DNA from: Robiginitomaculum sp.
GTDB lineage: Bacteria; Pseudomonadota; Alphaproteobacteria; Caulobacterales; Maricaulaceae
Reading direction: 5' to 3'
Length of the DNA stretch: 64,000 nucleotides
NCBI GenBank assembly: GCA_021776515.1
Contig: JAJFFS010000002.1
Span: 1-64,000, forward strand
Shown here: one piece after another, positions 37,349 to 39,461 of the stretch
Layout of the letters: every line of letters begins with the position of its first letter
How positions within the stretch are numbered: the stretch's first letter is position 1
The notes under the pieces: model-generated
The model's database searches: none
Seen by the model: the letters and a program-made list of their open reading frames with translations, nothing else
What the model was told of the DNA's origin: nothing
Position numbers and translations under genes: made by a program

Positions 37349-38479
37349 ATGAAACACCTGTTCGTCGGCGCATCGCTTTGCGCCTTAGCCTTCATCCCAA
37401 GCATGCCCGCCAGCGCTACAACCATCGCCCCGTCCTATGACGTTGATGTAGCTTTTGTGCTGGATACTACGGGCTCCATGTCTGGCCTTATCGAAGGTGC
37501 CAAACAGAAAATCTGGTCTATCGCCAACGACATAGCCGACACCCGTCAGGGTCAACAAGGTACGATACGTTTTGCCCTTATCGGTTATCGTGATCGCGGT
37601 GATGCGTACATTACCAAAACATTTGACCTTACCACTGATCTAAGCGGCATTTACGGCCATTTGCTCGAATTTCGGGCGCAAGGCGGCGGTGACCACCCCG
37701 AATCGGTTAATCAGGCGCTGGACGAAAGCATTACAGACCTGCAATGGGACAGAAACCGGGATACCCTGCGCCTTGTCTTTCTGGTTGGCGATGCCCCGCC
37801 GCACATGGATTACCAGAATGACGTACCCTATGCGGTGACCCTGCGCGATGCACGCGATGCCAATATAATCGTCAATACGGTCCAGGCTGGACGACACACT
37901 GCTACCACCAAAATCTGGCACGAAATTGCTGATCTGGGCGATGGTGAATACCTCGCCATCCCTCAAAATGGTGGCATGAGGCAGGTTCACACCCCTTATG
38001 ATGAGCAGATAGAAACAATGCAACGGGCCATGAACGCAGGGGTGCTCAGCTATGGCTCTCACGCAGAACAGGCCATGGTGCAAAAGAAACGCAGCACAGC
38101 CCTTGCCGCTGCCGCACCTGTTGCTTCTGACATGGCCAGCTATCGCTTCAAAGCGGGCAAGAAAAACAAGGTGGTAACCGGCGGCCATGAACTGATCGAG
38201 GATTATGAAGACGGTAAAATAACGCTGGACGCCCTGGAGGAAGACAAACTTCCCGAAGAACTTAAAGGCCTGACCAAGGAAGAGCAAAAGGCGCGCCTTG
38301 ATACGCTGGTCGCAGAGCGTCAGAAGCTGAACGCGGATATGGAAGAACTGGTTAAAAAACGAGACGCCTTTCTGAAGGAAGACGCCGAAAAACGCGCCAA
38401 AGAATCCCCCGACGATGCCTTTGATGTGCAGGTCCGCGAAACCATCCGCAAACAGGCGGCGGCCAAAAGTAAGAGATAG
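37349..38479 (+). CDS. Secreted von Willebrand factor A domain protein
   Basis: 376 aa. Signal peptide ends near PASA-TT (residue 23). The vWA domain (about 30-220) begins VAFVLDTTGSMSG, a MIDAS with Asp-Thr-Thr-Gly-Ser in place of DxSxS, and continues FALIGYRDRGD and FLVGDAPPHMDY. The C-terminal third is highly charged and helical (KGLTKEEQKARLDTLVAERQ.. onward), a likely coiled coil. AGAGGT lies 9 nt before the ATG. vWA proteins bind metal-dependent ligands; the partner is unknown and no neighbouring gene suggests it. Confidence 0.85.
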   Translation: MKHLFVGASLCALAFIPSMPASATTIAPSYDVDVAFVLDTTGSMSGLIEGAKQKIWSIANDIADTRQGQQGTIRFALIGYRDRGDAYITKTFDLTTDLSGIYGHLLEFRAQGGGDHPESVNQALDESITDLQWDRNRDTLRLVFLVGDAPPHMDYQNDVPYAVTLRDARDANIIVNTVQAGRHTATTKIWHEIADLGDGEYLAIPQNGGMRQVHTPYDEQIETMQRAMNAGVLSYGSHAEQAMVQKKRSTALAAAAPVASDMASYRFKAGKKNKVVTGGHELIEDYEDGKITLDALEEDKLPEELKGLTKEEQKARLDTLVAERQKLNADMEELVKKRDAFLKEDAEKRAKESPDDAFDVQVRETIRKQAAAKSKR

Positions 38480-38496: not shown

Positions 38497-38601
38497 CCAT
38501 ACTTCGAGGGCGCTACGCGCCACCTCAGCATGAGGTTGAGTATTGTATATATTCACCCTTATCCTGAGGGATTGCGTCTTCGCAATCGTCTCGAAGGATG
38601 G
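38497..38601. repeat. Interspersed repeat family C
   Basis: Left half CCATACTTCGAGGGCGC and TACGCGCCACCTCAGCATG; right half TTATCCTGAGGGATTGCGTC, TTCGCAATCGTCTCGAAGGA. Each half has an inner hairpin (GGCGCTACGCGCC; GATTGCGTCTTCGCAATC), and the outer CTTCGAG/CTCGAAG and CCTCAG/CTGAGG segments pair. This layout is common to intergenic repeats in many alphaproteobacteria. Only one copy is in the window. Confidence 0.75.
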
Positions 38602-38706
38602 ATGCTTCAAAAGAAAAAAAGGATTGTCCGGACACGAAAATATTTGATTTTACCGTATTTCCCCCCTTAACTTTAACCACATTCACGTCAATACGGTGGG
38701 ATCAAA

Positions 38707-39393
38707 ATGGCCGACAATAAAGACAAGCAGCAAAGCAAAAAATCTGAATCCATCGAAGTGCGATTGCCCTTTGAAACGAAAGCTGCTTTGGCAGCAAGAT
38801 CAAAACGCGATGGTCAGTCTATGAGTGACGTTGTGCGCCTTCTCATTGAGCAATATTTGGCAAATACCCATGCCTTAGCGCCACAATTTTCCAACACTAA
38901 AAGACTTTTCATTATCACGCGCAAGAGAGCCGCTGCCGTTTTATCGGCACTTGCTGTCAGCACCGCTATCGCCCTAGCCACGATGGCACCAAGCCAGGCA
39001 GATGATGTAGAGCTATCCATAGGCGGACACATCACCCAAGGCCATGGCAAAACAGAAATAACAAAACAAAACGGAACGGTTGGTATTATTTCCGACGGGA
39101 TTTCCGTAATAAAGTTGAACGACAAGGTCATTACCGAATATGGAAAACCGGTTGTAATAAGCCATACAGTAAATGGTACTACAGCGTATATTTTAGAATT
39201 TACGTCCAGGCCAACCGATGAGGGCAATGTTTATATTTCGGTCACAATAAAACACCGCGAAGGGGGGGATGAAAAAATTATTGCAACCCCCTCAATTACG
39301 GTTGAGTATCAGAAAAATGCTCGCATCGAGATTGCTGGCGATAATGACAGTGCAAGCCTATTATCTTTAAACGTTTTAGTGAAAAAATTATAA
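38707..39393 (+). CDS. Ribbon-helix-helix domain fused to TM and periplasmic domain
   Basis: 228 aa. Residues 15-52 (SIEVRLPFETKAALAARSKR, then DGQSMSDVVRLLIEQYL) fit a CopG/Arc-type ribbon-helix-helix: a short beta strand with basic residues followed by two helices. A basic patch (TRKRAAA) then leads to a hydrophobic helix at about 75-95, followed by SQADD. The remaining 130 residues are beta-rich and polar, as in an exported domain. The topology is a cytoplasmic DNA-binding domain tethered to the membrane, similar in plan to ToxR/CadC but with RHH in place of winged helix. The hydrophobic segment might instead be an internal signal (AxA-like PSQA). No family is recognised. Confidence 0.75.
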   Translation: MADNKDKQQSKKSESIEVRLPFETKAALAARSKRDGQSMSDVVRLLIEQYLANTHALAPQFSNTKRLFIITRKRAAAVLSALAVSTAIALATMAPSQADDVELSIGGHITQGHGKTEITKQNGTVGIISDGISVIKLNDKVITEYGKPVVISHTVNGTTAYILEFTSRPTDEGNVYISVTIKHREGGDEKIIATPSITVEYQKNARIEIAGDNDSASLLSLNVLVKKL

Positions 39394-39413
39394 TCCCTTT
39401 CAAACAAGCAAAC

Positions 39414-39451
39414 AAAAAAGGCATGTGCCGCGAAGCACATGCCTTTTTTAT
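39414..39451 (+). terminator. Terminator between RHH gene and tRNA-Asp, probably bidirectional
   Basis: AAAAAAGGCATGTGC pairs with GCACATGCCTTTTTT around CGCGAA. T-runs follow the stem on both strands, so it can stop both the RHH gene from the left and the tRNA-Asp transcript from the right. Confidence 0.9.
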
Positions 39452-39461
39452 TAGCATGAAA

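Follow-up and report, generated by a model that had tools for sequence, protein, structure and literature searches.

In the window, the 64,000-nucleotide stretch of Robiginitomaculum sp. DNA analysed here, one gene encodes an N-terminal ribbon-helix-helix (RHH) domain, a hydrophobic helix and an outer beta domain. On balance, the product is probably a self-regulating membrane-tethered one-component regulator, which would bind and probably repress its own promoter. Its relatives in the Caulobacterales and beyond keep the RHH and hydrophobic parts and exchange the outer part, and a palindrome, TGTCCGGACA in the window, stands upstream of more than half of the family genes compared. Direct binding, repression and topology are what we infer from sequences and models, and signal-peptidase cleavage of the protein is the main rival interpretation.

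Results

RHH domain of the window protein

RHH proteins are usually small soluble dimers. An RHH domain had been proposed for the N-terminus in a preliminary description of this gene, with structure prediction of the region as one check, and both the searches and the model bear it out. Pfam RHH_1 matched residues 16-52 with 22.7 bits, above its gathering score of 20.5; the best Pfam matches of the protein were RHH_1, FitA-like, RHH_5 and RelB, and those of the N-terminal part were RHH families only. A profile of the family N-termini gave solved RHH proteins as top matches, DinJ (7e-5) followed by ORF56, ParG, MazE7 and VapB26. In the AlphaFold2 model, residues 22-34 and 39-56 form the two RHH helices, and confidence there is high (block means of 87-97 across residues 11-50). 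The protein has the strand-helix-helix order, the length of about 40 residues and the profile match that define the RHH superfamily, and on these sequence and model comparisons its RHH domain is genuine. In Arc, the DNA-facing strand residues are Gln9-Asn11-Arg13; by analogy, we take S15, E17 and R19 to be the DNA-facing residues of the window protein.

Table 1. Features of the RHH gene and its surroundings in the window
Feature	Position	Strand	Basis
Secreted vWA protein gene, upstream neighbour	37349-38479		VWA_4, 42.8 bits
Palindrome TGTCCGGACA, putative autoregulatory operator, 73 bp before ATG	38625..38634	.	Enrichment upstream of family genes
Putative -35 TTTGAT	38643..38648	+	Placement from family logo only
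Putative -10 TTAACT	38667..38672	+	Placement from family logo only
Likely ribosome-binding site GGTGGGA	38695..38701	+	Direct sequence reading
RHH-membrane-beta-domain CDS, 228 aa	38707..39393	+	ATG start; orthologs
RHH domain, residues 16-52	38752..38862	+	Pfam, profile, model
Basic linker, residues 53-73	38863..38925	+	Sequence
Hydrophobic helix, residues about 74-92 (membrane anchor or signal-peptide core)	38926..38982	+	Hydrophobicity, model
MAPSQA/DD, residues 93-100, signal-peptidase-I-like motif	38983..39006	+	Sequence
C-terminal beta domain, residues 99-228	39001..39390	+	Family comparison, model
19-pair terminator-like hairpin 3' of gene	39411..39452	.	Reported on minus strand; plus-strand reading also runs into T's

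Hydrophobic segment and outer domain

Hydrophobicity is highest in the 19-mer starting at residue 76 (KD 1.98), and the AlphaFold2 model places one continuous helix at residues 61-91. With its conservation in the family, described below, this agrees with the single membrane-spanning stretch proposed earlier; by sequence and model, a DNA-binding domain and a transmembrane segment are joined in a single protein, as in one-component regulators. The end of the hydrophobic stretch resembles that of a cleavable signal peptide, so that the tethering of the window protein is open to doubt. This MAPSQA/DD site and the palindrome upstream of the gene (Table 1) had both been missed in the preliminary description. 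A P-x-A type motif follows the hydrophobic stretch in 86 of 137 family members, while several others (L018, L022 and L257) have plain helices free of a cleavage motif and retain the operator, suggesting that tethering is accepted. Separate production of a secreted protein from an internal start was considered and rejected: from the RHH domain to the end of the hydrophobic stretch the window gene offers neither ATG nor GTG, the only candidate start codons among codons 51-98 being TTG at 51 and ATG at 93.

Modelled alone, residues 98-228 form an all-beta structure, a single-sequence prediction of low confidence (mean pLDDT 62.8, pTM 0.62), which fits the beta-rich domain of about 130 residues described earlier. 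The same type of domain is common to a subset of the family, and it also occurs free of any RHH domain behind a plain signal peptide in two loci (L150:1216-1794 and L153:1180-1803), supporting a periplasmic location, as had been supposed; this stand-alone domain matched no Pfam family. The full-length model gave a best Foldseek E of 0.038 and VIA Z scores of at most 5.4. For the low-confidence model of the beta domain alone, the best Foldseek E was 0.006, to a fold other than secretin, and the best VIA hit was a designed beta protein (Z 8.8), then secretins (about 7-8.5, with InvG at Z 8.5, rmsd 4.6 and 111 aligned) and C2 domains (about 6-7). Pfam gave no secretin match in the window protein and, at E up to 1, no EF-hand profile; these fold matches of the modelled outer domain are not decisive.

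Extent and architecture of the family

Relatives of the window protein were found in 29 of 99 related genomes, its own included, and the arrangement is conserved both in orthologs of 46-49% identity and across the family, which argues for more than chance. When genome contigs were scanned with a single protein as query nothing was detected; an alignment query succeeded. With the alignment of N-terminal parts, relatives were detected in 106 of 299 genomes from the order but in only 3 of 240 taken from across the class. Scanning the named genomes with the alignment gave 139 relatives, of which 80 loci, selected with an RHH peptide pattern and tblastn, were kept. In all, 148 proteins were collected, 137 of them non-redundant, so that the profile search for RHH-membrane fusions suggested in the preliminary description yielded a whole family. 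It is concentrated in Caulobacterales and extends to Kordiimonadales, Sphingomonadales and Ruegeria, with members in Parvularcula, Ponticaulis, Henriciella, Hyphomonas, Maricaulis, Brevundimonas, Caulobacter, Phenylobacterium, Kordiimonas and Sphingomonas.

A hydrophobic segment follows the RHH domain in 137 of 137 members, a count that leans towards such a segment because the recruiting alignments included the hydrophobic part; in 129 its mean KD is at least 1.6 over 17 residues, and among the named loci 79 of 80 have a segment with KD of at least 1.4 over 19 residues. The RHH and hydrophobic parts are constant, and the outer part consists of EF-hand loops in most members, or of a beta domain or TonB_C. 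By a loose pattern, at least one EF-hand-like loop follows the hydrophobic segment in 100 of 137; Pfam EF-hands above the cut-off were found in five members (L061, L067, L104, L132 and L267), and Pfam TonB_C in one from Henriciella (L085). The smallest members, from Brevundimonas and other Caulobacteraceae (L080, L097, L101, L106, L119 and similar), have about 100-115 aa, in which the RHH domain and the hydrophobic segment are followed by just one EF-hand. As RHH proteins form dimers, the EF-hands of two subunits could pair.

Palindrome upstream of the family genes

In 61 of 103 genes, the 260 bp preceding the RHH region include the general form of the palindrome, TGTCNNGACA; its place is nearly constant, in most genes 65-155 bp ahead of the KKSE codons. 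It is the top-ranking one of 2304 inverted dyads, being present in 55 of 97 non-redundant upstream regions (best unrelated dyad, 8). At the named loci, 47 palindromes were counted in 80 upstream regions of 260 bp against 1.2 expected, the expectation being derived from 69 sites elsewhere in 1.19 Mb. Of 7 occurrences of a 20-bp version of the operator in 299 genomes, 6 are upstream of a family gene. Two sets of 40 genomes, hand-picked from the 299 of the order, were compared for TGTCCGGACANGAWW: 14 of 17 matches were upstream of a family gene in the family-positive set, whereas all 8 matches in the family-negative set were inside predicted ORFs. The two sets together have 11 matches at other places, 10 in predicted ORFs and one (L206, in G037) between two predicted ORFs. 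TGTCCGGACA recurs at three loci (L189, L191 and L193) inside genes judged by eye to be apparent 2-oxoglutarate dehydrogenase E1 genes; these are false operator matches.

The aligned logo reads TGTCCGGACA-(C/G)GA(A/T)TT-n-n-CTGGC, and in many relatives an imperfect second copy follows about 21-22 bp downstream. From the logo, CTGGC would be the -35 element and T....T at +42 to +47 the -10 element; the second copy would then lie between -35 and -10, which suggests repression. The upstream region of the window gene holds no clear second copy, and a scan for consensus sigma-70 promoters reported none at the place of its putative -35 and -10, which are not consensus. Outside the order of the window but within the same class, one genome (G323) has two sites 22 bp apart before a gene for an RHH-hydrophobic-EF-hand protein. 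The strict palindrome is absent in 42 of 103 genes, mostly short Brevundimonas-type and Kordiimonas members, and a de novo search for dyads in 35 non-redundant upstream regions lacking the relaxed palindrome gave nothing above 6 of 35. Among the minimal Brevundimonas-type members, which lack the palindrome, six (L086, L116, L119, L123, L124 and L136) retain a GATTTCNCTGGC-like part. A same-genus family gene broken by stops (L156, on contig C62 of G005) still has TGTCCGGACA 110 bp upstream. In the main texts of open-licence papers, no bacterial description of the operator string was encountered, the matches listed being from p53-family or other eukaryotic work.

Operator centre and RHH strand residue

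The centre of the operator covaries with strand residue 5, which precedes the conserved L/I-E-V/I-R strand and would face the DNA by analogy with Arc. RHH dimers bind DNA through a two-stranded sheet, and for this family the covariation would be only an indirect sign of such binding. The discovery set consisted of 103 genes, 35 of them without a relaxed site. Among those with a site, a Lys at this position went with an AT centre in 9 of 10, and other residues in 0 of 58 (Fisher 2e-10, ignoring relatedness). For a held-out set, 60 further family genes from about 150 places were combined with L143 and L147, which had already been glimpsed; after removal of 11 genes without the motif pattern and 8 near-duplicates, 43 remained, carrying a relaxed site in 34 and a strict one in 24. 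The AT centre was found in 12 of 12 Lys-type genes of this set and in 0 of 22 others; with all genes pooled, the counts are 21 of 22 and 0 of 81. Paralogs within single genomes (G103, G136 and G152) fit the same rule: the three of G103 (L039, L229 and L230) carry M, S (with an E-to-D change) and K as the strand residue, and CG, CT and AT as the operator centre. On a tree of 103 genes, however, the fewest changes were 6 for Lys and 7 for AT, with one independent pair on supported branches; this single pair gives no significance, and repeated co-evolution is not statistically established. Much of the observed pattern would also be expected from one old Lys/AT subfamily.

Gene layout and neighbouring genes

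The window gene forms a single-gene unit with a hairpin on either side, a terminator-like one at 38524-38540 between the vWA gene and the RHH gene, and a strong one after the gene (Table 1). It is flanked by the vWA protein gene on one side and by tRNAs and an HU-like gene on the other. Among the loci examined, the vWA-RHH adjacency is retained in same-genus orthologs only (L154 and L155). A conserved partner operon was not seen in the 20 fetched loci, 18 of which had a called family gene; members stand mostly alone among housekeeping genes. Inspected by eye, the immediate neighbours of the window gene include nothing toxin-like, and the adjacent toxin gene in one operon that marks a type II antitoxin is absent. 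The entire 2.57-Mb genome has a single copy of TGTCCGGACA, located in the promoter region of the RHH gene itself, and the two other places matching YGTCCGGACR are inside predicted ORFs. Regulation of the neighbouring vWA and tRNA genes, which had been suggested earlier, is rejected for this lack of sites, and the flanking hairpins and the restricted vWA adjacency also speak against it. The single-gene layout, the lack of a conserved partner and the lack of other exact sites fit a self-addressed loop.

Discussion

In the mechanism proposed here, a dimer of cytoplasmic RHH domains would bind TGTCCGGACA just upstream of the -35 element of its own gene, and in many relatives the second imperfect copy would lie between -35 and -10. 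Binding from the membrane face would most likely repress the gene. The hydrophobic helix would carry the C-terminal domain across the inner membrane, where the interchangeable outer domain may be either a sensor that alters RHH binding, or a useful product, the amount of which is controlled by the loop. An extension is advanced tentatively, with somewhat less confidence than an even chance: the family may represent modular one-gene circuits, in which tethered RHH receptors sense a periplasmic signal and address only their own promoter, paralogs being insulated by strand-residue changes. As parts of this extension, the signal would be calcium in the EF-hand majority and another ligand for the window beta domain, and the code would pair T, S or M with CCGG-like, and K with CATG operator centres.

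It is rather unlikely, though this is the main alternative, that the protein is a precursor, the RHH domain being a long cytoplasmic leader ahead of a real signal peptide, with cleavage by signal peptidase I setting the outer beta or EF-hand part free in the periplasm; at the same modest likelihood, the RHH stub or unexported precursor would repress the gene, making it an autorepressor that reports on export. The APSQA/DD sequence, the P-x-A type motifs of other members and the plain secreted beta domains of L150 and L153 favour cleavage, but the members that keep the operator and have no motif do not fit it, and those with a single EF-hand would free only a very short peptide. A classical ToxR/CadC-like sensor with distant targets, for which the self-site is one of several, appears unlikely: the arrangement agrees with that of transmembrane transcription regulators as treated in the main text of PMC10269533, yet exact sites, to which the counts refer, are essentially confined to the promoters of the family itself.

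The palindrome could instead belong to another regulator of these envelope genes, with the RHH domain serving another role, since a shared site by itself does not name the protein that binds it. This is quite improbable, because the family-negative genomes compared carry the site only inside ORFs and the operator centre tracks the RHH strand residue. A soluble antitoxin-like RHH protein, with the hydrophobic stretch buried in a globular fold, would agree with the best Pfam matches, but it is extremely improbable in view of the hydrophobic segment throughout the family (partly favoured by recruitment), the continuous modelled helix and the neighbourhood, in which no toxin-like gene was seen by eye. 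The self-regulating tethered regulator is the reading that we prefer.

If it is correct, this widespread family would bring a further DNA-binding fold into one-component membrane signalling, and periplasmic calcium would be coupled to transcription by a very short path. Together, the operator and the residue that matches it would make a ready-made specificity code for orthogonal membrane sensors; under this code, the CATG-centred counterpart of the window operator, TGTCATGACA, would pair with S15K (KKSES to KKSEK). In the main texts of open-licence papers, no description of a membrane-tethered RHH regulator was found; on this search the family appears to be without earlier description, and its autoregulatory signature would be new here.

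Comparison with known systems

The DNA-binding domain of ToxR and CadC is a winged helix (Trans_reg_C type). The window protein, which matches RHH families only at its N-terminus, has an RHH domain in that place and is for this reason not a member of the ToxR/CadC family. The only strong site found is in its own promoter, and its hydrophobic stretch may be cleavable. The preliminary description, which saw a one-component regulator in the ToxR/CadC style, thus holds for the arrangement, with a different DNA-binding fold, while continued tethering is in doubt because of the cleavable-looking stretch. The likeness to regulators of this type, as given in the main text of the survey PMC10269533, lies in an N-terminal DNA-binding domain, a single membrane helix and a periplasmic domain within one protein. 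The same main text contains no mention of RHH, CopG or ribbon; a further list of over a hundred DNA-binding domains stands in Table S1 of the survey.

Another link between a periplasmic EF-hand protein and gene regulation, likewise among Caulobacter and its relatives, is the CaBP-SigV circuit of Caulobacter vibrioides (PMC13171946); CaBP is, however, a secreted protein of 133 aa that acts with a sigma factor, and the abstract of that report mentions no RHH. From the soluble RHH autorepressors Arc, CopG and RelB, the window family differs by its membrane segment, its exchangeable periplasmic domain and the lack of a visible toxin partner, and it shares with them the RHH fold, palindromic operators in its own promoter and a predicted strand-residue contact.
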